Below, piece by piece: positions 7,526 to 59,545 of a stretch of 64,000 bases of DNA. The DNA lies in the NCBI RefSeq assembly GCF_900149695.1, contig NZ_LT703003.1, positions 434,001 to 498,000 on the forward strand, written 5' to 3'. Within the stretch, counting starts at the first letter, position 1. Every line of letters begins with the position of its first letter. Under the pieces are notes generated by a model. The model was not told the origin of the DNA and did no database searches. It worked only from the letters and a program-made list of their open reading frames with translations. A program made the translations under genes and the position numbers. This DNA is from Anderseniella sp. Alg231-50 (GTDB lineage: Bacteria > Pseudomonadota > Alphaproteobacteria > Rhizobiales > Aestuariivirgaceae).

Positions 7526-9328
7526 ATGACAGAGACATCGCACATCCGCAATTTTTCCATTGTTGCGCATATCGACCACGGCAAGTCCACGCTGGCAGAC
7601 CGGCTGATCCAGACCTGCGGCGGGCTGACCGCGCGCGAGATGAAGGAGCAGGTACTCGATTCCATGGAGATCGAGCGTGAGCGCGGCATTACCGTCAAGG
7701 CCCAGACGGTGCGCCTCGACTATACCGCCGACAATGGCGAAACCTACGAACTGAACCTGATCGACACACCGGGCCATGTCGACTTCGCCTACGAGGTCAA
7801 CCGGTCACTGGCGGCGGTGGAAGGATCACTGCTGGTGGTCGATGCCGCCCAGGGCGTGGAAGCGCAAACGCTGGCCAATGTGTACCAGGCGATCGAGAAC
7901 GACCACGAGATCGTGCCTGTCCTCAACAAGGTGGATTTGCCCGCGGCGGAGCCCGACAGGGTGCGCCAGCAGATTGAAGACGTGATCGGGCTGGATGCAT
8001 CCGGCGCGCTGGAAATCTCCGCCAAGACCGGTATCGGCATCAAGGAAGTGCTGGAAGCAATTGTCCACCAGTTGCCCGCGCCGAAAGGCGAGGCAGACCA
8101 ACCGCTGAAAGCCATGCTGGTCGACAGCTGGTACGATGCCTATCTCGGCGTCATCGTGCTGGTGCGCATACTGGATGGCCGGCTCAAAAAGGGCATGCGC
8201 ATCAAGCTGATGTCCACCGACGCCAATTACCTGGTCGACCGGGTCGGCGTGTTCCGTCCGAAACAGGAAATGGTGACCGATCTGGGCCCCGGCGAAATCG
8301 GCTTCTTTACCGCCGCCATCAAGGAAGTCGCAGACACCCGTGTCGGTGACACGGTAACGGAAGAAAAACGCCCGTGCGCCGAAGCCCTGCCCGGTTTCAA
8401 ACCGGCTCAACCCGTGGTGTTTGCAGGTTTCTTCCCCGTAGATACGGCAGAGTTTGAAGACCTGCGTGAGGCCATGGGCAAGTTGCGCCTGAACGATGCC
8501 AGCTTCTCGTTTGAAATGGAAACCTCCGCCGCACTCGGCTTCGGTTTCCGCTGCGGGTTCTTAGGGTTGTTGCACCTGGAGATCGTGCGCGACCGGCTGG
8601 AACGGGAGTTCAACATCGACCTGATCACCACGGCACCGTCGGTGATCTACCACATCCACCAGATCAAGGGCGAGATGCTGGAACTGCACAACCCTGCCGA
8701 CATGCCCGAACCCAACTATATCGACACCATTGACGAACCGTGGATCCAGGCGACCATCCTGGTGCCGGACGAGTATCTCGGTGCGGTTCTGAAGCTGTGT
8801 GAAGACCGCCGCGGGCGTCAGAAGGAACTGACCTATGCCGGGTCGCGCGCCATGCTGATCTATGAGCTGCCGCTCAATGAAGTGGTGTTTGATTTCTATG
8901 ACCGGCTCAAGTCAGTGACGCGCGGTTATGCCAGTTTCGATTACCAGATGACCGGATACGAGCCCGGCGACCTGGTACGCATGCACGTGCTGGTCAATGA
9001 GGAGCCGGTGGATGCACTGGCCATCATCGTGCACCGGGGCCGCGCCGAACAACGCGGCCGGGTCATGGTTGAAAAACTCAAAGACCTGATCCCGCGCCAC
9101 ATGTTCAAGATTCCCATCCAGGCCGCCATCGGCGGCAGGGTGATTGCGCGTGAAACCATTTCAGCCATGCGCAAGGACGTAACGGCGAAATGTTATGGCG
9201 GCGACGTCTCACGCAAGCGCAAGCTGCTGGACAAGCAGAAGGAAGGCAAGAAGAAAATGCGCCAGTTCGGCCGCGTCGAAATTCCGCAGACCGCGTTTAT
9301 CGCAGCGTTGAAGATGGACGAGAATTAG
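7526..9328 (+). CDS. lepA: Elongation factor 4 (LepA)
   Basis: 600 residues, the normal length, from ATG 7526; an in-frame extension to 7433 is not needed. The GTPase domain shows AHIDHGKST (14-22), [20 protein letters not shown] and NKVDLP. The C-terminal LepA-specific domain is present ([22 protein letters not shown] segment). EF4 is a ribosome-associated GTPase that back-translocates or remodels stalled ribosomes. The copy looks intact. Downstream lies a dispersed inverted repeat. Confidence 0.98.
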
Positions 9329-9338
9329 AGTTTTGTAA

Positions 9339-9581
9339 CGCTCACGCAAGCAGCCTTCGGCTGCGCTCCGCGGGGGCGGGCCTGACCGGCCCGAGACCCG
9401 TCGGGTCTGGTTATTTCTAAGCAGTCGAACAGCTTATCCGCCTTCGGCGGGCCGTTCTCCGACCCCGAACAACCATAGTGATGAACTCCTCCGAGGCACG
9501 GAACGTGCTGAGGCAAGGCCGACAGGCCGCCGCGCGGAGCGCGCCCTAGCGGAGCGCAGCCGAAGGCTGCTTGCGTGAGCG
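9339..9581. repeat. 33-bp perfect inverted repeat enclosing a dispersed repeat unit
   Basis: Bases 9339-9371 and 9549-9581 are exact reverse complements, separated by 177 bases. The arms start CGCTCACGCAAGCAGCC and contain the inner palindrome AGCCTTCGGCT. The element fills the 294-base gap between the converging lepA and dcd genes, so it could also serve as a bidirectional terminator. I see no reading frame of its own. Confidence 0.85.
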
Positions 9582-9589
9582 GAATAAAC
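9424..9589 (-). repeat. Dispersed intergenic repeat, copy A (second copy at 34615-34880)
   Basis: Read on the minus strand, this 166-base stretch is nearly identical to the + strand copy at 34615-34880: both start GTTTATTCCGCTCACGCAAG, run through the AGCCTTCGGCT palindrome, CCTTGCCTC.GCAC, GTTCCGTGCCTCGGAGG and GTTGTTC.GGG.CGGAGAACGG, and end at GCTGTTCGAC. Copy B has an extra internal tandem unit of about 98 bases. Both copies lie between convergent genes. Confidence 0.85.
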
Positions 9590-9622
9590 CAGCCAGTTCG
9601 CGTGAGCGGAATCAAACCAAAC

Positions 9623-34614: not shown

Positions 34615-34880
34615 GTTTATTCCGCTCACGCAAGCAGCCTTCGGCTGCGCTCCGCTAGGGCGCGCTTCGCGCGGCGGCCAGTCGGCCTTGCCTCGGCACT
34701 AACGTGCCAGGGTTCATTCCGCTCACGCCAGCAGCCTGCGGCTGCGCTCCGCTGGGGCGCGCTTCGCGCGACGCGCAGTCGCGCTTGCCTCGGCACGTTC
34801 CGTGCCTCGGAGGGGAATTCATCACTACCGTTGTTCAGGGACGGAGAACGGCCCGAGCGAAGCGAGGAAAGCTGTTCGAC
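34615..34880 (+). repeat. Dispersed intergenic repeat, copy B with internal tandem duplication
   Basis: Near-identical to the minus-strand copy at 9424-9589 at both ends. Between them copy B carries a second version of the first unit: unit 1 at 34618-34699 and unit 2 at 34716-34796, about 82 bases each with several substitutions, both beginning ATTCCGCTCACGC. The element fills the gap between the convergent radical SAM and PfkB genes. No coding potential is supported. Confidence 0.85.
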
Positions 34881-34901
34881 CCCCAAAAAAGACTAACTAG
34901 C

Positions 34902-45041: not shown

Positions 45042-47645
45042 GTGTTGAGTGTAGAGACCGCGCCATCACTTGATGAGCTGAATAATGCTGTCACGCCGGC
45101 ATGGCTGTGGGACGGCGCACGGCTGCGTATTGTCTGGGCCAATGCCGCTGGTCTGGCGGTTTTTGGCTGTGACAGCCTGTTCGACCTCATCGACATGCCG
45201 TTCGACGAAACCGACCCCGGCGCGGGCCGTGTATCTGAACTGGCCAGAACCGCGGCAACCGGCGAAAGCTGGCAGGAAATGGTGAGCTTTGCGTCAGCCG
45301 TAAGCGACGCGCCGTTCAGCGTGACCTTGCATGTGCACGCGCTTGCCGACGGGCGCAATGGGCTTTTGATGGTTGCCGAAACGCCGCCTTCGGGCTCGGC
45401 GCAGGCTGCACAAGATACCGGGCAGGCAAATTCAGTGCTGGAGAGCCTGCCGGTTGCAACTGTGATCTGCAGTGATGATGGCGCGATCAGCTATGCCAAT
45501 GCGATGGCCCGCAGCCTGTTCGGGCAATCCACGCCGGCCTCGCTTGCGGAAATCTCCGAGCAAGACGTTGCGGCCAGGATATTTGACCGTGCGCGGCGCG
45601 CCGGCATTGCCAGCTCGATTGCAACGATGGCGACCGGGTACGGTAATCGCGAAATCAGGGTGACTGCAAAGCTGATCACCTTGCCTGACGACACTGATGG
45701 CAGGTTTTCACTGATACTGGAGGACGTTACCGAGCGCCGCGCGCTTGAGCGCGCATTACCGGCATCCGGCATGCCTGTCCCGGCACCAGCTACGGTTGGA
45801 CCCGCAGAGCAGGCAGAAACCATAAGAGAACTGCGGCAGGCGGTTGAAGCGGCAACCGCCCAGACGTCCGCAGGCACGCCGGCGAAGACTGTGGCGCCGG
45901 AAACCCCGCCTGCCCCGGCCCGGGCGAATGCGAAACCTCCGGCGCGATCCAGCGCGCCTCCAGCACGGACCGCCGCACCAGCTGCAAAAACCGCCGGCTT
46001 CGGCGTGGCCGACATCGTGCGCAAGGCACTGTCAGACATTCCCAAGGCCATCGTTTTATACCGTGCCGGCAAGCTCGTTTATGCCAACCAGGCGATCGCC
46101 GCCACATTGGGCTGCGCCAGTGAAAATGACCTGGCCGGGCGCCACGATATTGCCGCAGCTCTGGGTTCGCTGGCGAACAAGCAAGGCACAGTCACGCTCA
46201 AGCGGCGGAACGGTGAGGAAATCGAGCTCGGCGTGGATAAATCGACGTTCCCGTGGAATGACGGCGCCATGCCGATGGCAATACTGACTGAGACAGACAG
46301 CAAGAAGCCGAACGGGCCGGTCGCCGTGCCGGTTTCGCGCAGCGACGCAGCACAGCCCGACACCACAGCATCGCCCGACAGTGATACGCCCAGGGCCGCT
46401 GCGGTAACGCAGCCTGCACAATCTGCGGAGGATGACGCAAAAGAGCCGACTGCGCCAACCAGCACGAATGCAAAAACGCTGCAGCCAGAGGCGCAGGCAG
46501 GCCCGCAACCGGCCGTCAGCACATCGGAACTGATGTCTATTCTGGACACGGCGACGGACGGTATCGTGTTCCTGGCCGATGACGGCAGCATCACGCATAT
46601 GAGTGCCGGAGCAGAAGCACTGTTTGGTGTCCATGCGGCCAGTGTTATCGACAAACCGCTCGCCGGCCTGATGGACAAGGCAAGCGCCAAAGTGGTGCGT
46701 GATTATCTGGCCGCGCTCGGTGACAGCGGCCTTGCCATGCTGTTCAATGGCGGCCGGGAGATCATTGCCAACGTCAATGATGGCGGCGATGTGCCGATTT
46801 TCATCACCATGCGCAAGATCGCGGTTGGCATGCAGGGCATTCCTGCATCAGCCTATTGCGCCGTGATGCGCGACATTACCCAATGGAAGAAGACCGAAGC
46901 AGAGTTGCGCGCATCGCGCGACGAGGCCGAACACACCAGCCGGCAGAAGTCCGAATTCCTGGCGCGTATCAGCCACGAACTGCGCACGCCGCTGAATGCC
47001 ATTCTCGGATTCTCCGATATCATGCGCAACGGGCAGTTCGGCAAGCTCGGGTCGGAGCGCTACGAAGGCTACGCCAATGATATCCACACCTCGGGCGAGT
47101 ACCTGTTGTCGCTGGTCAACGACCTGCTCGACCTGTCCAAGGTGGAAGCCGGCAAGCTGGAGCTGAACTTCATCTCCGTCGACCTGGGCCAGGCGATCGA
47201 TTCCTGCATAAAACTGATGCAGGACGAAGCCACCGGGGCCCGCGTCGTGCTGCGCAAGTCGGTTGCGCCAAACCTGCCCCAGGTCGTGGCGGACATACGC
47301 TCGATCAAGCAGGTGTTGCTGAACCTGACCTCAAACGCGATCAAGTTTACCGACCCCGGCGGCCAGGTGATCATAACCGCCAAGGCGATTGATACCGGAG
47401 AGCTTCTGCTGTCCGTCACGGACACCGGCGTCGGAATGGACGAGGAACAGTTGAATACGGCACTGGAGCCGTTTCGAAGGGTCGAAGTGGCCGGACGGCC
47501 GGAAGTTCAGGGAACCGGCCTCGGCCTTCCGCTCACCAAGGCGCTGGTCGAGGCCAACCGGGCATCCTTTGAAATCTCCAGCGAAGCCCGCAAGGGCACG
47601 CGCATCGACATCACCTTCCCCACGACCCGCGTACTGGCAAGCTGA
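45042..47645 (+). CDS. Multi-PAS sensor histidine kinase, PleC/DivJ/PdhS-like
   Basis: 867 residues; start GTG 45042 or the next codon TTG. Several PAS-like segments (about 10-110, 128-225, 315-405, 490-600) are joined by Ala/Pro-rich linkers. The HisKA box FLARISHELRTPLNAILGF has His645, and the stretch FGKLGSERYEGYANDIHTSGEYLLSLVNDLLDLSKVEAGKLEL is characteristic of PdhS/PleC-type kinases. The ATPase domain has NLTSNAIKFT, DTGVGMDEEQL and GTGLGLPLTKAL. No membrane segment, so cytoplasmic. It may act in the DivK/CtrA cell-cycle phosphorelay. Its 3' end recurs as two decayed fragments downstream. Confidence 0.9.
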   Translation: MLSVETAPSLDELNNAVTPAWLWDGARLRIVWANAAGLAVFGCDSLFDLIDMPFDETDPGAGRVSELARTAATGESWQEMVSFASAVSDAPFSVTLHVHALADGRNGLLMVAETPPSGSAQAAQDTGQANSVLESLPVATVICSDDGAISYANAMARSLFGQSTPASLAEISEQDVAARIFDRARRAGIASSIATMATGYGNREIRVTAKLITLPDDTDGRFSLILEDVTERRALERALPASGMPVPAPATVGPAEQAETIRELRQAVEAATAQTSAGTPAKTVAPETPPAPARANAKPPARSSAPPARTAAPAAKTAGFGVADIVRKALSDIPKAIVLYRAGKLVYANQAIAATLGCASENDLAGRHDIAAALGSLANKQGTVTLKRRNGEEIELGVDKSTFPWNDGAMPMAILTETDSKKPNGPVAVPVSRSDAAQPDTTASPDSDTPRAAAVTQPAQSAEDDAKEPTAPTSTNAKTLQPEAQAGPQPAVSTSELMSILDTATDGIVFLADDGSITHMSAGAEALFGVHAASVIDKPLAGLMDKASAKVVRDYLAALGDSGLAMLFNGGREIIANVNDGGDVPIFITMRKIAVGMQGIPASAYCAVMRDITQWKKTEAELRASRDEAEHTSRQKSEFLARISHELRTPLNAILGFSDIMRNGQFGKLGSERYEGYANDIHTSGEYLLSLVNDLLDLSKVEAGKLELNFISVDLGQAIDSCIKLMQDEATGARVVLRKSVAPNLPQVVADIRSIKQVLLNLTSNAIKFTDPGGQVIITAKAIDTGELLLSVTDTGVGMDEEQLNTALEPFRRVEVAGRPEVQGTGLGLPLTKALVEANRASFEISSEARKGTRIDITFPTTRVLAS

Positions 47646-47877
47646 GCCGGAACAACAGCGGGAACCCGCGACTTGCCAGCGACCCTAACAAATCGCCGCA
47701 AGATTCTGTCTGGGTTGGAAACGCCCGGCGTTATGTTTCAGATTCAGGAATTTGCACTCCTTGCAAACGGCCCCATCCGGCCATTCGCGCCAAGCGGTTC
47801 TGCCGCACGGCAACATTCGTCAGCCGCGCCTGCTTGCGTGTTCAGAATCGAAACCGCCCTAAGAAAATAGCGGTCAG

Positions 47878-48603
47878 TCAGATAGCAAGACTTGAGTTTT
47901 GCTCATCTGATAACACGAACTCCGGTGAAGCATATGTCCCCAGTTTGGATGTTTTCAGACCGGCAGCAACCAGCGCTTCCACCAGAGTAACCGCACAGGC
48001 GACACCATCCACGACCGGCAAGCCAAATTCCTTTGCCAGCTGATCCATCAAATCGGTCATGCCGGCGCAGCCAAGAACAATTGCCTCGGCTTTGTCCTCG
48101 TTGATCGCCGACTTTATCTCCTGACGAATCTTGTCGATAGTCGCGACGTCTCCACGTTCAAGTTGCAGAACAGGTATGTCGGTTGCCCGGACTTTTGCGC
48201 ACCGCGATGCCAGCCCGTACCTGGTCAAATTGGTCTCGAGCCCTGATACGGACCGCGACAGTGTGGTGATGACACTGAACCTCGCCGCAATCATACTGGC
48301 GGCATGGTAGGCTGCCTCGCCAATGCCAATCACCGGCACATCAACCAGGCAGCGTACCGCGTCCAGGCCCGTGTCATCAAAACAGGCGATGACGATGGCA
48401 TCAACGTCCGGGTGCTGCTTTACCTCGGCAATCAAGCCCGGAATACACTCCGCAATATCCAGATAACCCTGAATGCTGGCAGGGCCATTTTGAGAGTTGG
48501 TGGCAATAATCTGTGTATCCGACCGGGCTGCCGCCTTTGCCGCGGTTGCTATTTTCCGCGTCATCGAGGCTGTGGTATTTGGATTAACAACAAGAATTTT
48601 CAT
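47878..48603 (-). CDS. Aspartate/glutamate/hydantoin racemase family protein
   Basis: 241 residues. N-terminal ILVVNPNTTASMTRKI, first catalytic Cys in IVIACFDDTGLDA and second in IVLGCAGMTDL form the two-cysteine racemase site of the HyuE/hydantoin racemase group. It could racemise a 5-substituted hydantoin, allantoin or related compound. Eight bases separate it from the LivF-type gene, placing it in the ABC transporter operon and suggesting that the imported compound is its substrate. Confidence 0.87.
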   Translation of the reverse strand: MKILVVNPNTTASMTRKIATAAKAAARSDTQIIATNSQNGPASIQGYLDIAECIPGLIAEVKQHPDVDAIVIACFDDTGLDAVRCLVDVPVIGIGEAAYHAASMIAARFSVITTLSRSVSGLETNLTRYGLASRCAKVRATDIPVLQLERGDVATIDKIRQEIKSAINEDKAEAIVLGCAGMTDLMDQLAKEFGLPVVDGVACAVTLVEALVAAGLKTSKLGTYASPEFVLSDEQNSSLAI

Positions 48604-48611
48604 AAGCTATC

Positions 48612-49334
48612 TCACACTTCGCTGCCCAAATACGCTGCCTTGATCCGATCATCGTGCAGCAGGTCTTTGGACACGCCTGATATGGCCACATTGCCGGTTG
48701 TCAGCGCATAGGCCCGATTGGAAATGCTAAGTGCCATTCTGGAATTCTGCTCAACCAACAGCACTGATACACCCTCATCCCGATTGATCGCGACGATCGA
48801 ACGGGCAATGTCCTGCACCAGTTTGGGAGCGATCCCCAGCGATGGTTCGTCCAGCAGCAAAAGCTTTGGCCGGGCCATAAGGGCGCGCCCGATCACCAGC
48901 ATCTGCTGCTCGCCGCCCGACAAGGTTCCTGCAGCCTGCGAATATCGTTCCCTTAGCCGCGGAAACCGTTCAAGAACGCCGTCCAGTGATTGACTGATCT
49001 CGGTTTTGTCCGACCGGGAAAATGCGCCCATCATCAGGTTGTCCTTTACCGACATATACGCAAACACGCGGCGTCCTTCGGGAACCATGGTGATGCCCCT
49101 GTTCACAACGTCAGATGCAGGCAGGCCGTCGATCTGCTCACCCATGAAGTGGATCGAGCCCTTGTCCGGCCTTGCCAGCCCGGTGATCGCTTTCAGAATG
49201 GAAGACTTGCCGGCACCGTTTGCCCCGATCAGTGCGACGGTTTCGCCCTCTTGCAGGTTTATCGTAACGCCGCGCAGCGCGTAGACATGATCGTAGTAGA
49301 GCTCGACATCTTTGAATTCCAGCATATCGCTCAT
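48612..49334 (-). CDS. ABC transporter ATP-binding protein, LivF type (second cluster)
   Basis: 240 residues with Walker A GANGAGKSS, signature LSGGEQQMLVIGRALM, Walker B LLLLDEPSLGIAPKLV and switch LLVEQNSRMAL. Typical LivF. Second ATPase of the operon 53237-47878; the LivG-type gene ends three bases upstream. Confidence 0.93.
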   Translation of the reverse strand: MSDMLEFKDVELYYDHVYALRGVTINLQEGETVALIGANGAGKSSILKAITGLARPDKGSIHFMGEQIDGLPASDVVNRGITMVPEGRRVFAYMSVKDNLMMGAFSRSDKTEISQSLDGVLERFPRLRERYSQAAGTLSGGEQQMLVIGRALMARPKLLLLDEPSLGIAPKLVQDIARSIVAINRDEGVSVLLVEQNSRMALSISNRAYALTTGNVAISGVSKDLLHDDRIKAAYLGSEV

Positions 49335-49337
49335 GGC

Positions 49338-50117
49338 CTACATCCCGATTGCATCGTCTTCGCTGCCCAGATAGGCCTCGATGACTTTGTCGTTGTTCTG
49401 GATTTCTGCTGGCGTTCCCTCGGCAATCATCTCGCCGAAATTGAGGACGACAATCCGGTCGGAGATCGACATCACGGCAGCCATGTCATGCTCGACCAGC
49501 AACACGGTAACCCCCCGGTCACGCACAGATTTGACCAAACGGACCATGTTCATGGTTTCGTCGTGGTTCATGCCTGCAAACGGTTCGTCCAGCAGCAGCA
49601 CCTTGGGATCAGTAGCCAGCCCGATGGCGACACCAAGAGCGCGCAGGTGGCCCTGGGGCAAGTTGTGGGCCAGTTCGTGGCGGATATCGCCCAGTTCCAG
49701 AAAATCAATGATCTCATCGGCATTCCTGCCGAATGTCCGGATATCCTCCCTGGCGGTTCTTGAGCCCAGGAAATACCCGGCGAGCGTTGCCTTTGCACGT
49801 AAATGCTGGGACACGATCACGCTTTCCCGCACTGTCATGCTCTTGAATATTGTGGTCTCCTGAAACGTGCGCACAACGCCTTTTCGGGCCACAATGTGGG
49901 GCCGCAGGTTTGATATCCGCTCGCCCTTGAACAGCACCTCGCCCGAAGTTGTTCGAAGAAACGAGGAAATCATCTTGAACAGCGTGGATTTGCCTGCACC
50001 GTTGGGACCGATCACAGACAGGATTTCGTGCTCGGCCACGTTGAAATTGATGTTGTTGTTGGCGGTAAGTCCGCCGAACTTTTTGGTGACGTTCCTGACT
50101 TGCAGAATGGGGGTCAT
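49338..50117 (-). CDS. ABC transporter ATP-binding protein, LivG type (second cluster)
   Basis: 259 residues. Walker A GPNGAGKST, the LivG-specific VVRTFQETTIFKSMTVRESV, signature altered to LPQGHLRALGVAIGLA (no canonical LSGGQ), Walker B VLLLDEPFAGMNH and switch LLVEHDMAAVM. The degenerate signature occurs in some LivG proteins. Its start overlaps the LivM-type stop by four bases. Confidence 0.92.
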   Translation of the reverse strand: MTPILQVRNVTKKFGGLTANNNINFNVAEHEILSVIGPNGAGKSTLFKMISSFLRTTSGEVLFKGERISNLRPHIVARKGVVRTFQETTIFKSMTVRESVIVSQHLRAKATLAGYFLGSRTAREDIRTFGRNADEIIDFLELGDIRHELAHNLPQGHLRALGVAIGLATDPKVLLLDEPFAGMNHDETMNMVRLVKSVRDRGVTVLLVEHDMAAVMSISDRIVVLNFGEMIAEGTPAEIQNNDKVIEAYLGSEDDAIGM

Positions 50118-51100
50118 TGCTTATCCCCCGTCGGCACTTTGAACCGGAGGCTCAGCAGACCGTTTGGCAAAAACCGGATTAACAGGATCATGGCAGCGGA
50201 GTAGATCAGCAACTGATACTTGCCGAATGTGAACAGCAAGTCCCAGCCGAAATACAGAACCAGCGTGCCCAGCATCGGGCCAAACACATAGCCCAGCCCG
50301 CCAAGGAAGGTGTTGAGCATGAAGTTGATTGAATCCGTGACCACGAAAGTGGACGGGTAGACCGATTGCGCGATGGAGCCGAACATCGCCCCGCCGATAC
50401 CGCCAAAGAACGACGCGATGGCAAAGATGATAATGCGGATATAGGCAATGTTGACGCCAATGGACGAGGCCAGTTCCTCGTTCTGTTGCATCGAGCGGCA
50501 CAGATGTCCCAGCCGCGTATTCACCAGCCTGTACATGGCGGCGAAAACGATCACCATCAGGATGCAGGCGGTATAGTAGAAGGCCAGCTTTGGGCTTTCC
50601 AGTGCGCCAAAATCGGGGATGAGCGTAAGCCCAAAGATCGAAACAGCCCCTGGCAGCGGTATCGAGGTGATGCCGCGGGCGCCATTGGTAATGGGCAAGG
50701 CAAGAGCGCTTAACGTGGCAACTTGAGTCAACACCAGCGTGATCATGGCAAAATAGACACCTCGCAGCCGCAGGATAGGCAGGCCGATCAGGATGCCGAT
50801 ACCGGCTGCAATCAGACCCGCAATGGGCAGGGAAATCCAGAACGAAACCCCTGCCTTGGTTACAAGAATGGCCGAAACATAGGCGCCTACAAGCGCGAAT
50901 GCGCCCTGTCCGATATGGATGCGGCCGATGTAGAATGTCAGCCATACGCCACCACTGGCGATGGCCAGCAAGGCAACCGATGTCAGGGTGAAATAGAAGT
51001 CCCATCGACCGGTGACCGAGATCAGAACCGGCACCGCCACGAATATTGCCAAAAGGAATATGACGACACCTGTGATTTGTCTGGAGCTTAAGTTGGTCAT
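50114..51100 (-). CDS. ABC transporter permease, LivM type (second cluster)
   Basis: 328 residues, hydrophobic throughout, with FYIGRIHIGQGAFALVGAYVSAIL and the coupling segment FLGGLGYVFGPMLGTLVLY. Forms the permease pair with the LivH-type gene five bases upstream. Confidence 0.92.
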   Translation of the reverse strand: MTNLSSRQITGVVIFLLAIFVAVPVLISVTGRWDFYFTLTSVALLAIASGGVWLTFYIGRIHIGQGAFALVGAYVSAILVTKAGVSFWISLPIAGLIAAGIGILIGLPILRLRGVYFAMITLVLTQVATLSALALPITNGARGITSIPLPGAVSIFGLTLIPDFGALESPKLAFYYTACILMVIVFAAMYRLVNTRLGHLCRSMQQNEELASSIGVNIAYIRIIIFAIASFFGGIGGAMFGSIAQSVYPSTFVVTDSINFMLNTFLGGLGYVFGPMLGTLVLYFGWDLLFTFGKYQLLIYSAAMILLIRFLPNGLLSLRFKVPTGDKQ

Positions 51101-51104
51101 GTCG

Positions 51105-51974
51105 CTAACCCCATGGTTTGCCCATCAGGCCATTCGGCCGGATTGCAAGAAAGATCATCAGCGAAACGAAGATCACCAGATAGGTGACGTCTCCATACGA
51201 TGCCAGCAGAACAAGTCCGGCTGCCTCCATGAAGCCAAGGATGACGCCCCCGGCGATGGCGCCGGATATCACGCCCGCTCCTCCGATCATCACCATCATG
51301 AACGCCTTGATCGAAGTCGGACCCCCCATGCCCAGATTGACACCGGTAATTGTCACCAGCAGCCCACCGACCAGCCCCGCCAGCATGGCCCCCATGGCAA
51401 AACCGATCATGGAGTAACGGTCAACATTGACACCCATCAACTCGGCCGCCACGCGGTCCTGAGCGAGAGCCCGCAAGGCACGCCCGGTCTTGCTGTACTG
51501 CATGAAAGAAATGAACGCCACGACCGACAGGATCGCCAATACGGCCACCAGTATCCGGTCATACGGCATGATGATGCGCCAGTCCCAGTTGAACACGCCA
51601 TCAACAATTTTCGGAACGCCCCGTTGTTTTTCGCCAAATACCAGCAAGATGGCAGCGTCCAGCAGAAAGGCGATTCCGGCGGCAAGGAGCATAGTGCTTT
51701 CTTCGCGCGCGGACCCTTTTATTACCGGCCCGAACAGGAATTTTTCTATCAATGCACCCAGGACTGCCAGTGTTACGCAGGATGCCAGCAGCGCCAGGAC
51801 AAACGGAATCCCAAGCTGCCCGTAAAACGTGTAAGTGATGAACCCGCCGATCACATACATTTGCCCGTGGGCAAAATTGAGCACGTTCATCAGGGCAAAT
51901 ATCAGGGTCAGCCCAAGTGCGATCATCGCATACTGGGCACCCAGATAGACGCCATTGGCCAATATCTGTTCCAT
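51105..51974 (-). CDS. ABC transporter permease, LivH type (second cluster)
   Basis: 289 residues with LGLTLIFALMNVLNFAHGQMYVIGGF at the N terminus and MIGGAGVISGAIAGGVILG before the C terminus, the LivH pattern. It follows the receptor gene after a hairpin-containing gap of 72 bases. Confidence 0.93.
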   Translation of the reverse strand: MEQILANGVYLGAQYAMIALGLTLIFALMNVLNFAHGQMYVIGGFITYTFYGQLGIPFVLALLASCVTLAVLGALIEKFLFGPVIKGSAREESTMLLAAGIAFLLDAAILLVFGEKQRGVPKIVDGVFNWDWRIIMPYDRILVAVLAILSVVAFISFMQYSKTGRALRALAQDRVAAELMGVNVDRYSMIGFAMGAMLAGLVGGLLVTITGVNLGMGGPTSIKAFMMVMIGGAGVISGAIAGGVILGFMEAAGLVLLASYGDVTYLVIFVSLMIFLAIRPNGLMGKPWG

Positions 51975-51994
51975 CGGACAGCCTTTTTAGTGAA

Positions 51995-52015
51995 CCCCGG
52001 GCGGTCAGCCCGGGG
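51995..52015 (-). terminator. Hairpin between receptor and LivH-type genes
   Basis: 8-bp all-GC stem CCCCGGGC / GCCCGGGG with a GGTCA loop, 31 bases after the receptor stop. No long U-run. Fits partial termination or 3'-end protection that favours receptor expression. Confidence 0.65.
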
Positions 52016-52046
52016 TAACCTTGTTGCACAGTCAAGGAAGTCGGGA

Positions 52047-53237
52047 TCAGTCGACCTGTGCCACGAACATGGTTTCGAATTTGCCGTTCTGATAAACGTT
52101 CACCACCAGCGGAACAGAAACCTGGCGCTTTTGCCCGAACGAAGTGGAACCGACATATGTCAACTTGGCATCGCCCTTCATGTAGGGGTTCGGCGCTTCG
52201 AATGTGTCCATTGTCGTCTTGAACGCTTCAACGTCCTTCATCGCCGCCGGGTTGGCCTTGATCGTTTCAAGAATGTACTCAAGCGCGTAAACCTTGGTGT
52301 TGGACTCGTCGTTGTACTCGCCGAACATCTTGGTGTAGCGGTCGACAAATTCCACCATCATGTCCGAGGCCAGTTCGGGCGTGGATGCACCGCCGACCGA
52401 AATGAAACCGTTGGCCAGATCACCAGCACCTTCAGCCAGCACACCGGCGTCCTGGGCGGTTTCGGTGGAAATCAAACCGGTAAACCCGAGCTCGCGCGCC
52501 GAGCGGATCAGTTGCGGTGCGTTGGCCGGGGCCACACCGGACAGGACCAGCAGATCAGGCTTGGTGCGCATGACCGGGGTCAGCACCGGGGTGAAGTCGG
52601 TGGTATCCACCTGATAGGTCACGCTGTCCGACACAACGTCCAGGCCCAGGGCCTTGGCAGCCGCAACACCACCGTCACGCTGGCTCAGCGGGTCGGATTC
52701 GTTGGCCGCAACAAAGGCCACGGTCTTTACACCGTTGTTTTCCATCAGGTGTTTGTAGATCGCCGGACCGGACTGGTAGTTGGCGATCATGCCCAGAATG
52801 GCGTTGGACGCGGGCGCCGTGTAAAGCGATTTGGGGAACGCATAGGGAAAATACATGATTCCGTTTTTTTCCGCGACCGGGCGAACGGCAGCAGCCCCGT
52901 CATCCACATTCGGCCCGACCACATAGTGAATTCCGGCCTGGGCCATCTTCTCCATGCCGGCGATTGCCCGCTTGGGGTCTTTCTGATCGTCGAACGAGAC
53001 AATTTCGATGTCATAGGTGGTCCCGCCGATGGTATAACCGCCGGTCTCGTTGATCCAGGCCGCGCGGGTTTCCATCGAGCGCTGGTTGGATATGCCCCAG
53101 GCCGCCGCCGGCCCGCTGGTTACACCGACAAACCCGATTTTCAGAACCGGGTTATCAGCCATAGCAACCGACGACAAAGCTGTCAGTGCCACGGCCGCCA
53201 GTGTTGTCTTGAACAATTCTCTGCGTTTCATGTTCAC
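52047..53237 (-). CDS. ABC transporter substrate-binding protein, LivJ/amide-binding family
   Basis: 396 residues with an export signal (KRRELFKTTLAAVALTALSSVAMA; KRR start hints at possible Tat use, but no twin-Arg-x-F-L core is complete). The mature protein is a family-5/6 periplasmic binding protein: LKIGFVGVTSGPAAAWG, AWINETGGYTIGGTTYDIEIVSFDDQKDPKRA, GPNVDDGAAAVRPVAEKNGIMYFPYAF. First gene of the operon that ends with the hydantoin-racemase-like gene, so a hydantoin, amide or amino acid derivative is a reasonable ligand. Confidence 0.9.
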   Translation of the reverse strand: MNMKRRELFKTTLAAVALTALSSVAMADNPVLKIGFVGVTSGPAAAWGISNQRSMETRAAWINETGGYTIGGTTYDIEIVSFDDQKDPKRAIAGMEKMAQAGIHYVVGPNVDDGAAAVRPVAEKNGIMYFPYAFPKSLYTAPASNAILGMIANYQSGPAIYKHLMENNGVKTVAFVAANESDPLSQRDGGVAAAKALGLDVVSDSVTYQVDTTDFTPVLTPVMRTKPDLLVLSGVAPANAPQLIRSARELGFTGLISTETAQDAGVLAEGAGDLANGFISVGGASTPELASDMMVEFVDRYTKMFGEYNDESNTKVYALEYILETIKANPAAMKDVEAFKTTMDTFEAPNPYMKGDAKLTYVGSTSFGQKRQVSVPLVVNVYQNGKFETMFVAQVD

Positions 53238-53328
53238 CTCCCATAGGGTTTCTACTTGTCCGGCGGATCACACGCCGGAATCGATCGAAAATCAGGATTC
53301 CCAAGTTTCGTATCTCGTCAATCAAACG

Positions 53329-53396
53329 ATTGTTAACAATGATCGTCAACAATTTTCGGGTCCGGCGTTAGCGATATTCTTGTTTCCGTTAACAAT
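53329..53396. promoter_or_regulatory. GTYAACAAT operator cluster between the receptor gene and the GntR gene
   Basis: Three copies of GTYAACAAT at 53332-53340, 53345-53353 and 53388-53396. The first is part of the perfect palindrome ATTGTTAACAAT (53329-53340), close to the ATTGTATACAAT type recognised by FCD-domain GntR regulators. They lie 92-160 bases from the receptor start and just upstream of the divergent GntR gene. Confidence 0.6.
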
Positions 53397-53483
53397 ACTC
53401 ATGAGCTATGATGCAAAGCGGGTTGAGCGATTCCTTGCAGAAACAGTTAGTTGACCCGGGATTTTGGACCCAGAGGATATGCC

Positions 53484-54170
53484 TTGATACATCGGTTTGC
53501 GTCAGATCCTGACGAACAGGTTATTGTTGATCGCATCTACACAGCAGTGATGGAGCAACGCCTGGCCCCGAAAACCAAGCTGAGCGAGTCGCAATTGTGT
53601 GATAGTTTCGGCGTGGGACGCATGCGTGTGCGCCGCGCACTTCTGTTGCTGGCCAGCCAGGGCATTATCGACCTTCAAGCCAACCGAGGTGCATTCGTCG
53701 CCTGTCCCGATGCGAAAGAGGCGAACGACGTTTTCGAGGCCCGCAAACTGATAGAGCCCGGCCTGATCGGCGTGGTCACCTCGGTAATCAGCAAAAGTGA
53801 TCTTGCTGATCTGAGAAAACACATAGCGATGGAAGATGCAGCGCGCAGCAACCCCGAACGGGCCGAAATCATCCGCCTGTCCGGTGAGTTTCACGTCAAG
53901 CTGGCATCCGTCAGCAGGAACGCGGTTCTGATCAGAATGATTGGCGAATTGGTAACCCGAACATCCCTGATTGTTGGTTTATTCGGCGATTCCGGCAAAT
54001 CGACATGTCCGGACGGCGAACACGCAAAGATACTTGGTGCCATTGAAGCAGGAGATGCGGCACTGGCGGAAAATCTTGTCTGCAAACACCTGATGCACAT
54101 TCAGGACGGGCTGGATTTGACGGCAACCAAACCCGACCTGCCCGACTTGAAAAAAATCCTCAGCCAATAG
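53484..54170 (+). CDS. GntR-family regulator with FCD ligand domain
   Basis: 228 residues from TTG 53484, chosen because AGAGGA (53472-53477) sits six bases ahead; a TTG at 53451 would add 11 residues. N-terminal winged helix VDRIYTAVMEQRLAPKTKLSESQLCDSFGVGRMRVRRALLLLASQGIIDLQANRGAFV; C-terminal FCD domain with DVFEARKLIEPGLI, FHVKLASVSRN and EHAKILGAIEAGDAALAE (His/Asp metal or ligand site). Divergent from the ABC operon, which it most likely controls in response to the substrate. Confidence 0.88.
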   Translation: MIHRFASDPDEQVIVDRIYTAVMEQRLAPKTKLSESQLCDSFGVGRMRVRRALLLLASQGIIDLQANRGAFVACPDAKEANDVFEARKLIEPGLIGVVTSVISKSDLADLRKHIAMEDAARSNPERAEIIRLSGEFHVKLASVSRNAVLIRMIGELVTRTSLIVGLFGDSGKSTCPDGEHAKILGAIEAGDAALAENLVCKHLMHIQDGLDLTATKPDLPDLKKILSQ

Positions 54171-54184
54171 CCGCACCTGCAGCA

Positions 54185-54357
54185 GATTGAGAACGGAGAG
54201 CTTCTGTTGTCTGTCACGGACACCGGTCTCGGGCTGCCGCTGACCGGGGCGCCGGTCGAGCCCAAACGGGCGTCCTTCAAAATCTCCAGAGAAGCCCGCA
54301 TGGGTACGCGCATCGACATCACCTTCCCCACGACCCGCCTACCGGCAAGCTGAGCCG
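54185..54357 (+). pseudogene. Decayed copy of the histidine kinase 3' end (tail copy 2)
   Basis: Bases 54185-54227 align with 47387-47429 and bases 54228-54357 with 47520-47649 of the kinase gene. The intervening 90 bases (47430-47519) are missing; both deletion edges carry ACCGGY, suggesting loss between short direct repeats. A 33-base block at 54308-54340 is identical to the parent, and the parent stop codon and the following GCCGGA are kept. No start codon or upstream domain remains, so this is a fragment, not a gene. Confidence 0.85.
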
Positions 54358-54504
54358 GAGCCAATCCGGTGGCGCGCAGGCGAGCCTGATTTCCAACAAA
54401 CAGAAGCTGTGTGACAAATATCGCATACAGCATGTGGCGATCCCTTTAGTAAAGGGTTGGGCGTATCAGGGGCGATCTCCGTGGGGGCGATCACGAGGTG
54501 CACC

Positions 54505-55962
54505 ATGACGCATAAACTGAATACAGGCTTTGTACGGGCTGCTGCATTCGCCGCGGCTCTTCTCGCACCGGCTCTTGCCCATGCGCTCGACACCAACAAT
54601 GAATTCATCTGCACATTGGTCGGCGACGGCGCGCATAACGGCACCAACCCGACATCGAACCACCAGCCGAACCTGCAACTGTACGGTACCGACCTCGGTT
54701 TCAGCTTCCGCCACCGTCACCGCCTGGTGATGCTGTTCGGAGACACCTGGGTGCAGGACAATGCGATCTGCCTGCCGCCACCGCTTTCCGACGATTCAGT
54801 CGGCTCGCTGTTTCTGGGCCTCGACAACGATCCCGACGATTGCCTGAACCTGCGCTTCCGCACGGACGCGGCGAACGGCGCCCGGCCGATCCGGGTATTG
54901 AAAGGTGCCGTCGAGCAACCGATGGGCGCGCTCCGCACGCCGATTACCGGCTGGAGCGACAACCGACGCGCCTACGGTTACTTCACCGGCAACAACGAGG
55001 TTCAATGCGGTCCCGGAAATGCGTGTCCGTCCGATCTGGCGTGCGGGGCGGCGAATGTCTGCGTCGATCCAACCAGCTCAATGCCCGCGGCAGCCGCAGC
55101 CGAACGGCACATCGCCCGCACGCCTTTACCGTTTGGATTCAACGTGCATCGCTACAGGATCCGGCACACTTTCGTGACAGGAAAATTCCTGAACGCAACA
55201 TCGCGGGCAGTGAAAACTTTCAACGAGAACAGCCCCGCGACCAACGATTACACTGCGCCAACCGCGGGGTTTGGATTGTCCAACGGCGAACTGCTGATGT
55301 GGGGGCGACCGGCTTTCAGCGCCACGGTGGGCACCTCGGCCGATCTGTATCTCCTGCACCATCCGGTCCCCGGCCTGCAGGGACCAAGCGGCGCTTCAAG
55401 CTGGCAACCGCGCTATTTCGCCGGACTGAAAGCAGGCCAGCCCATCTGGAGCAGCGATCAGGCCGACGCCGTGCCGGTTATTGAAGACGAGGAGATCGGT
55501 CAGGTCCTGCAGCACTCCATTGCCTGGGTTCCGAGCCTGAACCAGTTCGTGATGCTGTACGGAGGACGCCTGCCGTTTCCGTTCACTCTTGTCCCCAACA
55601 ACCCCAATACCGGTATCCAGCTTCGCACAGCACCGCATCCATGGGGTCCCTGGTCCGATCCGCAACTCCTCTGGAATGCAACCGCTGAAGGCGCCTATGG
55701 CGGCTGCCCGGACGGCACCCTGTATCCGGCCCTGGGTGGCGGATGCGCGCAAACCGACCCGTTTCGACCCGGTGGCCTGAACATGTGCCCGGCTCCCTCG
55801 CCAAACCCCAACCTGGATTTCGGCGTCGAATACGGGGTCAATATACTTTCGACGTTTACGAAACCGGGACCGGAAGCGAATTCAGCGACAATCTACTGGA
55901 ACATTTCGACATGGAATCCGTATCGGGTCGTGCTGATGAAATCCACACTGACACTGCCGTAA
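54505..55962 (+). CDS. Secreted DUF4185-like protein
   Basis: 485 residues from ATG 54505, preceded by GAGGTG. Signal peptide HKLNTGFVRAAAFAAALLAPALAHA. The mature protein has repeated beta-propeller-like features: TDLGFSFRHRHRLVMLFGDTW near the N terminus, GLSNGELLMWGRP, and IAWVPSLNQFVMLYGG, WGPWSDPQLLW, ending in IYWNISTWNPYRVVLMKS. This resembles DUF4185 / glycosidase-like five-bladed folds. Ten or so cysteines, including CGPGNACPSDLACGAANVC, suggest disulfides outside the cell. It stands alone between two fragments of a kinase tail, which suggests it came as a separate insertion. Confidence 0.75.
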   Translation: MTHKLNTGFVRAAAFAAALLAPALAHALDTNNEFICTLVGDGAHNGTNPTSNHQPNLQLYGTDLGFSFRHRHRLVMLFGDTWVQDNAICLPPPLSDDSVGSLFLGLDNDPDDCLNLRFRTDAANGARPIRVLKGAVEQPMGALRTPITGWSDNRRAYGYFTGNNEVQCGPGNACPSDLACGAANVCVDPTSSMPAAAAAERHIARTPLPFGFNVHRYRIRHTFVTGKFLNATSRAVKTFNENSPATNDYTAPTAGFGLSNGELLMWGRPAFSATVGTSADLYLLHHPVPGLQGPSGASSWQPRYFAGLKAGQPIWSSDQADAVPVIEDEEIGQVLQHSIAWVPSLNQFVMLYGGRLPFPFTLVPNNPNTGIQLRTAPHPWGPWSDPQLLWNATAEGAYGGCPDGTLYPALGGGCAQTDPFRPGGLNMCPAPSPNPNLDFGVEYGVNILSTFTKPGPEANSATIYWNISTWNPYRVVLMKSTLTLP

Positions 55963-55984
55963 GTGGCGCGATGCCAAGACACTT

Positions 55985-56305
55985 GCTGTCGGACCTGATA
56001 CCGGTGTCGACATGGATGAGGAACAGTTAAACACTGGGCCTGAGCCGTTTCGAAGGATCGAAGTGGCCGGCCGGCCCAACGTTCAGGGAACCCGCCTCGA
56101 GCTGCCACCCAACAATGCGCTGGTCGAGGCCGACCGGACATCGTTTGCCATTTCCGGCGAAGCCTCATGGGCACCCGCATCGACACCACGTTCCCCACGA
56201 CCCGCGTACTAACAAGCTGAGCCAGATCATCGTGGGAACCGTGACTCGCCAGCGACCATAAAAAATGGCCAGAGAATTCTATCAAGGCTGGATACGCCCA
56301 GCGCC
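55985..56305 (+). pseudogene. Decayed copy of the histidine kinase 3' end and downstream sequence (tail copy 3)
   Basis: Aligns from about 47408 of the kinase gene onward: the DTGVDMDEEQLN, EPFRRIEVAGRP and NALVEA coding segments are readable. A one-base loss near 56167 shifts the frame, and the GLGLP motif has become RLELP. Similarity continues past the stop through GGGAACCG-GACT-GCCAGCGACC and GG-TGGA-ACGCCC-GCG up to 56305, i.e. the untranslated region after the parent gene was copied too. Confidence 0.85.
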
Positions 56306-56453
56306 AAAACCTATCAATTCAGGTTGAGCGAAACGACTGTTTGAGCCCATAGTGGTCATCCTTACTAGGACATGAAGCGCTACATAATAACCATGTGAAT
56401 TTGTCATCTTCCTCTTTTCAGTTAGACTCTGAATGATACGCAAGGAGGAGTTC

Positions 56454-57458
56454 ATGGAACTGACAGAGGCCGAAATCCAAGTCCTGGCTTCCTTTGCCGT
56501 TTTAGAGGCTGAGTCAAAACCGATATCCCGAAAAGATATTGAGGCGCGTGGAGAAGCATACCGGATATACAAAGAAGACTGGTCAGGGGCCTTTGAGACA
56601 CTCACAGAGAAAGGACTGATTGAGACCGGCGAGGCGGGATTGGAATTGACTGAGACAGGCCGCCCACATGCCGAGAAGCTTCGCAAAGAACGGCCCGACA
56701 TGTACTGGTATCAATATCAAAAATTCTACGTCGCTGCGCATGCGAGCCAGGCACATTCCAAACTTTGTAAGCGTGTCTTTGGCAAGGACCTCTGTCAGGA
56801 TGGCCAGACAGATATGCCCGCCCTGATACATCTTCTGGAGTTACTTAAATTGCGCCCTAAAGACAGGGTTCTTGACCTGGGATGCGGCGCTGGTGTGATT
56901 TCCGAGTACATCTCGGATGAAACGGGTGCTGAGGTCGTTGGCCTCGACTACTCTCAGTCGGCAATTGAGGCCGCTGCAAATCGAACGCTCGCAAAAAGCG
57001 ATCGGCTGGATTTTGAAACAGGCAATTTCAATGATCTGGATTTTCCCGACGAAAGTTTTGACGCAATCGTATCACTGGATACGCTCTACTGGGCAGCGAA
57101 TCTAACGGACGTTATGGCTTGCCTGATCTCAATTTTAAAACCGGGCGGACGTATGGGCATATTCATGAACCACCATATCGCCCCACCTGAACCACCTGAT
57201 CGTCTTGCTGTAGAATACTCCGATCTGGCTGTTGCGCTGAACATGCTGGGCCATCCTTATGAGAGTTTTGACTACACCAGGCAGATTGGTGAGTTTTGGA
57301 AGAGAAACTGCGCCGCTGCAGAAGAGCTACGACCGCTTTACGAAAAAGAGGGGAACGGCTTTATTGCTGAAGGCCTCATTCGAGAGTCGCGTGAAGATTA
57401 CCTGCCGGACGTCGATGCAGGGCGCATAGCCAGATATCTCTTTCTGTTGCTGCGCTAA
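56454..57458 (+). CDS. Winged-helix / SAM-dependent methyltransferase fusion
   Basis: 334 residues from ATG 56454, preceded by AAGGAGG five bases upstream, the strongest ribosome site seen here. Residues 1-80 look like a winged helix (EIQVLASFAVLEAESKPISRKDI..FETLTEKGLIETGEAGLELTETGR). Residues from about 115 are a class I methyltransferase: VLDLGCGAGVISEYI (motif I, 139-153), VVGLDYSQSAIEAA, FDAIVSLDTLYWAANL and LKPGGRMGIF. The methyl acceptor is unknown. Composition is more AT-rich than its neighbours, so horizontal acquisition is possible. Confidence 0.8.
   Translation: MELTEAEIQVLASFAVLEAESKPISRKDIEARGEAYRIYKEDWSGAFETLTEKGLIETGEAGLELTETGRPHAEKLRKERPDMYWYQYQKFYVAAHASQAHSKLCKRVFGKDLCQDGQTDMPALIHLLELLKLRPKDRVLDLGCGAGVISEYISDETGAEVVGLDYSQSAIEAAANRTLAKSDRLDFETGNFNDLDFPDESFDAIVSLDTLYWAANLTDVMACLISILKPGGRMGIFMNHHIAPPEPPDRLAVEYSDLAVALNMLGHPYESFDYTRQIGEFWKRNCAAAEELRPLYEKEGNGFIAEGLIRESREDYLPDVDAGRIARYLFLLLR

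Positions 57459-57586: not shown

Positions 57587-59545
<1,959 letters not shown>

Follow-up and report, generated by a model that had tools for sequence, protein, structure and literature searches.

How the 3' end of one gene comes to lie twice, in truncated form, downstream of its intact parent, with unrelated genes between the copies, is the question raised by a locus of the marine bacterium Anderseniella sp. Alg231-50. In the window analysed, a stretch of 64,000 nucleotides (contig NZ_LT703003.1, positions 434,001 to 498,000; all unqualified positions below are those of the window), an intact sensor histidine kinase gene is followed on its own strand (+) by two displaced copies of its 3' end. 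We call the end of the gene itself copy 1 and the displaced ones copies 2 and 3, or tails (Table 1). An earlier note had described the recurrence of the last ~260 bases of the kinase, with some sequence after its stop, and had attributed it either to foreign DNA repeatedly entering at the gene's 3' end or to a tandem kinase duplication broken up by insertions. Here we document the repeats, report that repeated gene entry at the kinase 3' end is supported, and weigh a history of sequential displacement by recombination, rather than by a mobile element, in which our confidence is evenly balanced.

Searched against all 8 contigs of the genome (4.61 Mb), the segment 47387-47900 gave four matches in total, the kinase included, all at the kinase locus. 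Copy 2 was retrieved in two pieces (54185-54232, 88% identity, E 1.2e-9; 54214-54359, 87% identity, E 5e-44) and copy 3 in one (55984-56303, 80% identity over 324 columns, E 5e-75); this search and the alignment confirm that the kinase end and post-stop sequence recur twice on the + strand. As had been described, copy 2 lacks a 90-base block bounded by ACCGGY: in the kinase the block lies between ACCGGC at 47424 and ACCGGC at 47514, and a single ACCGGT is left at 54222. The loss is an ordinary short-repeat deletion and, its length being a multiple of three, it leaves the kinase reading frame of copy 2 open as far as the old stop. The frame of copy 3 is disrupted, as reported, but the single one-base shift proposed for it proved to be two one-base gaps in its coding part, near its 5' edge and near kinase position 47586. 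No tail copy was found outside this locus in the genome, and each of five genus relatives gave a single match, which rules out the tails as a dispersed repeat, one of the findings that the earlier note had named as refuting its reading.

The edges of the tails are less regular than they first appear. Copy 2 starts at the equivalent of kinase positions 47383-47387 and copy 3 at 47398-47409, ~11-26 bases apart; the starts sit 10-24 bases past the stops of the preceding cargo genes, and kinase sequence upstream of ~47383 is absent from both. An identical start base for the two, an impression gained by eye, was rejected, as a shuffle test of the leftward extension of copy 3 gave p 0.159 and the DUF4185 locus of the sister genome (G001) accounts for the bases after that gene's stop. 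Beyond the kinase stop, BLAST homology between copies 1 and 3 persists to ~85 bases, and copy 2 departs from kinase sequence 9-31 bases post-stop, at the start of the DUF4185 cargo; a weak alignment that seemed to extend copy 2 far past the stop was discarded, since the bases concerned belong to that cargo.

Among the post-stop sequences, that of copy 3 and the native sequence of one genus relative (G005) are the closest match, with 79% identity over 78 columns and 69% over the next 55. The agreement of copy 1 with G005 is 68% over those 78 columns, pairs outside the comparisons of copies 1, 3 and G005 at ~35-53%, and other pairs in the 55-column block at 29-56%. A motif, GAGCGAAACGAC..., stands 3' of the kinase in G005 (0 mismatches) and G004 (1 mismatch). 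Because its post-stop sequence is closest to that of G005, and the motif also follows the kinase in G004, copy 3 is the side retaining the ancestral downstream context. The motif spans 22 bases and contains an inverted repeat (L018 668-689 and L020 15541-15562, both on the - strand), possibly an old terminator or regulatory stem; its version behind copy 3 has decayed by more than 3 mismatches. We rejected it as a dispersed palindromic element, as the Alg231-50 genome has no copy within 3 mismatches. At 3 mismatches there was one further match, on a different contig in G002, and since a reversed control pattern gave 7 matches in six genomes, only matches with 0 or 1 mismatch are counted.

The descent of the tails was examined over 258 coding columns with ultrafast bootstrap. 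Copies 1-3 split off from all relatives (bootstrap 92); the approximately unbiased test (p-AU) rejected a topology placing copy 2 with G005 (0.027) and came near to rejecting those placing copy 3 there (0.055 and 0.070). The tails thus arose in this lineage or came from very close kin, and as they cluster with their own kinase any donors were close kin. Branches leading to copies 2 and 3 measure 0.25 and 0.24, and that of the kinase (copy 1) 0.017. Copies 1 and 2 group with a bootstrap of only 61, with alternatives within 0.44 log-likelihood units; given differences of ~0.4, any order of events is only a point estimate. One derived base is common to copies 2 and 3 and two are common to copies 1 and 2. 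Over the 141 sites comparable in all three copies, copy 2 has 15 singletons, of which 8 fall in codon positions 1-2, 6 in third positions and 1 post-stop; copy 3 has 22 (11, 9 and 2, respectively). Between the kinase tail and that of G005 there are 31 differences, 25 of them in third codon positions and 6 in positions 1-2. Since differences of the kinase are biased to third positions and tail singletons are not, the kinase gene is constrained and the tails have lost coding constraint.

To the right, the locus is bounded by a conserved acetoacetyl-CoA synthetase (AACS) gene, and what lies between it and the kinase varies among relatives. We examined 16 kinase loci of relatives and based the gap count on the nine with both genes. 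Two of these gaps are empty (135 bases in L031 of G002, 11 bases in L034), five hold one shared gene for a permease-like protein of ~555 residues (L037, L038, L039, L041, L042), and the other two hold different single genes, for a 420-residue Mur-ligase-like protein in G001 (L028, 12628-13890) and a 200-residue nucleotidyltransferase-like protein in G004 (L030, 12686-13288); all three names were given by eye from sequence. Ancestrally, the gap may have held the permease-like gene common to the five loci. No kinase-tail copy was found in the eight of nine gaps searched, that of L034 being too short; the best matches, of 39 and 25 bases (E 0.005 and 0.006), were taken as chance. Relatives with the kinase directly before AACS and no tails, which the earlier note had named as support, are represented by the two empty gaps, and no locus was seen with the kinase directly before the methyltransferase gene, the other arrangement suggested. 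Of the seven loci without AACS, four stop at the kinase or close to it (L027, L029, L036, L040), and three extend 2.9-10 kb downstream without it (L032, L033, L035), so that the pairing of the two genes is not universal; none of these three showed a tail after the kinase (best E 0.18). In its conserved flanks, variable content and absence of any integrase or transposase found, the kinase-AACS gap resembles hotspots free of mobile elements, and we read it as a spot of gene turnover.

The genes between the tails have relatives elsewhere. Block A is collinear over 48035-54023 with G006:C469 at 70% DNA identity, and its cluster also occurs, rearranged, in G009; of the five genus members, G001, G003 and G005 have no relative of its binding protein, and G002 and G004 have matches of 29% and 27%. 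The DUF4185 gene of block B (Pfam score 61.6 bits; cut-off 39.5) has one close relative among 69 family genomes, in G001 (81%), and a partial 33% match in G073. In G001 the gene lies 407 kb from the kinase, and DNA homology spans the same stretch that here lies between the tails, leaving no more than ~24 bases over at each end. The matching site in Alg231-50 (C1:62184-62256) has 71 bases where G001 has 3,054 (L069 6574-9627, DUF4185 and a neighbouring gene); because that site is empty here, the gene has either moved or been gained at different places in the two species. The methyltransferase gene, considered earlier as a possible native flank, is likely cargo itself: its G+C content is 50.9% against 58.2% for the window, and its relatives stand at other chromosomal places in G003 and G004. 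Pfam matches of the cargo comprise transport, racemase, GntR, DUF4185 and methyltransferase families, and no toxin or immunity gene was found among them. Of the foreign DNA envisaged earlier, the repeated entry is supported, with the gap variable and the cargo elsewhere in relatives, and "foreign" must be used with care for sequences whose tails cluster with the resident kinase.

In agreement with the earlier note, no integrase, transposase or recombinase was found in 10 proteins (the kinase and nine genes through the methyltransferase) or in five junction frames. Viral carriers of the tail were ruled out, as no viral contig encodes a relative of it.

As a control for chance repeats, we surveyed 20 stretches of 20 kb, together 400 kb of the 4.61-Mb genome, for same-strand repeats of at least 100 columns. 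At least one pair occurred in 8 of the 20, and none of the pairs consisted of a gene and a downstream repeat of its 3' end. Those found included adjacent whole-gene look-alikes (L091, L092), repeats inside one gene (L082, L095), a dispersed repeat (L078, L079, part of L097) and two ABC-ATPase-like genes (also in L097). When the window was scanned in pieces, repeat pairs were confined to the piece holding the kinase locus. The survey also brought to light a 74% same-strand pair 1.4 kb apart (L090, 11332-11534 and 12771-12974) without an open reading frame of at least 110 amino acids. A family of dispersed intergenic repeats, unrelated to the kinase tails, occurs in this genome and in G001 as ~80-94% identical pieces in both orientations; it is present in the window (9295-9599, 34615-34900), elsewhere in the genome (L078 641-1135; L079 13077-13342 and 14922-15192; L081 1480-1661; L097 5139-5503) and in G001 (L069, 10.4-12.6 kb).

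Table 1. Features of the kinase locus and their positions in the window
Feature	Position	Strand	Basis
Sensor histidine kinase gene, intact	45042..47645	+	Pfam PAS, HisKA, HATPase_c; full-length genus relatives
Copy 1: last ~260 bases of kinase and ~85 post-stop bases	47383..47730	+	BLAST; alignment with both tails
Cargo block A: racemase, two ABC ATPases, two permeases, binding protein (all -), GntR regulator (+)	47878..54170		Pfam
Copy 2: displaced kinase 3' end, 90-base deletion, open in frame	54183..54362	+	BLAST, alignment
Cargo block B: one DUF4185 gene (54505-55962) and short flanks	54385..55970	+	Pfam; G001 DNA homology
Copy 3: displaced kinase 3' end, two one-base gaps, ~85 post-stop bases	55975..56305	+	BLAST, alignment
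Ancestral kinase-downstream sequence, retained behind copy 3 alone	56306..56355	+	Best match G005 native post-stop sequence, 69% over 55 columns
Methyltransferase gene, likely third cargo, without further flanking tail	56433..57458	+	Pfam; relatives elsewhere
AACS gene, conserved right flank of variable gap	57587..59545	-	Beside kinase in 9 of 16 kinase loci

In the history that we propose, DNA of close kin bearing a kinase 3' end and a new gene would have recombined by homology into the resident kinase at least twice, and its other end would have been joined by one-sided, illegitimate recombination to a point within the resident gene that lies ~235-262 bases short of its stop. One-sided recombination has been reported from three competent species as well as from conjugation in E. 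coli (PMC3240628). Alternatively, the DNA may have entered as a circle carrying a kinase fragment, through one crossover. By either route the kinase would be kept whole, and the old 3' end and old downstream gene would be displaced outward, giving in outward order the kinase with block A (newest), tail 2 with DUF4185 (older), and tail 3 with the ancestral sequence (original). The gap is variable, the cargo occurs elsewhere in relatives, the tails are lineage-born and unconstrained, and the ancestral context adjoins the outermost tail; the homologous anchoring, the donors, and the order and number of events are what we infer. If block B had been the first to enter at the kinase, and a later copying event within the same chromosome had added block A, the short exit of copy 2 would be predicted for copy 1 too. 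Copy 1, however, keeps ~85 post-stop bases and copy 2 only 9-31, which suits an incoming molecule with its own kinase-cargo junction better than two insertions copied inside a single chromosome. In a bolder version, which we think unlikely, the kinase 3' end would be a portable homology handle, circles of tail and gene leaving via the tails and entering the kinase of any strain with RecA alone; a conserved regulatory gene would then anchor cassettes stacked much as in an integron, but with no recombinase dedicated to them.

Several observations weigh against sequential displacement. Simpler states, with the kinase followed by block A or by DUF4185 and no tails, were found in none of the six genus genomes. 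Random joining does not predict tail starts as near to each other as these, a single event would give the same near-equal branches of copies 2 and 3, and the sister order of the three copies is statistically indistinct. Kinase identity to five distant relatives shows no step at the tail start and hence no sign of a replaced 3' end, a candidate set aside on this ground. ComEC- and DprA-family genes are present in the genome, but most control genomes also have matches to these families (10 and 11 of 14, respectively), so that they discriminate little and do no more than leave the route open.

The main rival is replicative template switching within one cell, whereby a fork broken at the kinase 3' end would have copied block A from elsewhere, come back to the kinase ~260 bases upstream of its exit point, then copied DUF4185 and come back once more, in one complex event or two. 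The equal decay of copies 2 and 3, their indistinct sister order, the closeness of the return points and the descent of the tails from the kinase of the same lineage all suit it. By itself, however, it gives no account of the other genes in the gap of sister species; as two events it would require copy 1 to carry copy 2's short exit into cargo, which is absent; and a search of five genus members gave no close relative of block A. We consider it possible but somewhat unlikely. The closeness of the tail starts, and the kinase gene that stays whole, could also reflect integrase-driven islands that targeted the kinase near 47385, restored its 3' end and later lost their integrase genes. We hold this decidedly unlikely: the ten proteins and five junction frames include no recombinase, the tail starts are at least ~11 bases apart, the cargo consists of single operons or genes, and viral contigs lack any tail relative.

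Near-equal ages and near-equal starts would likewise follow if a tail of ~350 bases had been tandemly duplicated first and cargo inserted illegitimately between the copies later, each block separately. Copy 2, however, ends 9-31 bases post-stop and copies 1 and 3 at ~85 or more, so that they are not copies of one unit, and a cargo-free array of tails was seen in no relative; this explanation seems to us highly unlikely. Decay in place of full-length tandem kinases, close to the duplication invoked earlier, has general plausibility and nothing more in its favour, and is barely credible when nothing of the kinase from upstream of ~47383 is present in either tail, the cargo genes preceding the tails are intact and stop ~10-24 bases short of them, and relatives show no tandem, with one match in each of the five genus members. 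Sequential displacement, set beside these, is the history that we prefer.

Literature on illegitimate recombination, minimal mobile elements, e14/icd, Anderseniella, duplicated 3' ends with histidine kinases, and hotspots yielded no title describing the locus; we claim no wider absence. The e14 prophage offers one parallel, as its insertion in icd restores the 3' end of the host gene, leaving that gene whole with the old 3' end at the far side. The kinase locus differs in that no integrase or prophage genes were found, two events are proposed, and the restored 3' end gives no sign of being foreign. Three published systems are also close. In rhs arrays, for which sequential insertion, and homologous recombination via a circle carrying a gene fragment, have been proposed (Jackson et al. 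2009, PMC2935791), gene fragments likewise stand in a row downstream of an intact copy; rhs, however, swaps its own variable C-terminal tip for foreign ones, whereas at this locus all copies share a conserved kinase end and a separate downstream gene is exchanged. In effector-immunity arrays of the Vibrio type VI secretion system, attributed to homology-facilitated illegitimate recombination (Kirchberger et al. 2017, PMC5361080), a new module similarly settles behind a conserved anchor, and the old gene with its 3' remnant is shifted outward; the cargo here is instead a transport/racemase operon and DUF4185, with no toxin or immunity gene and no obvious selection keeping the displaced genes. 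Many hotspots without mobility genes have been attributed to recombination at flanking core genes (Oliveira et al. 2017, PMC5635113), and like them this locus holds variable genes between conserved core genes, with no integrase or transposase. A double crossover is scarless, however, and the two flanking-gene scars here imply that one joint or more arose in some other way than by a clean double crossover. If simpler states exist in sister strains, the order and joining of such element-free gene capture become directly testable. With an intact anchor, truncated 3' copies on its strand, unrelated modules between them and variability in relatives, the locus is a variant of known displacement arrays, departing from them in that its anchor, a PAS/HisKA/HATPase kinase, is neither a polymorphic toxin nor an effector gene and comes with no immunity cargo; the anchor is unusual, and the cargo consists of unrelated single genes or operons. 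Recombination in flanking core genes normally leaves no trace; this locus, at a regulatory kinase without toxin-immunity selection, keeps readable scars of the flanking gene with the cargo between them.

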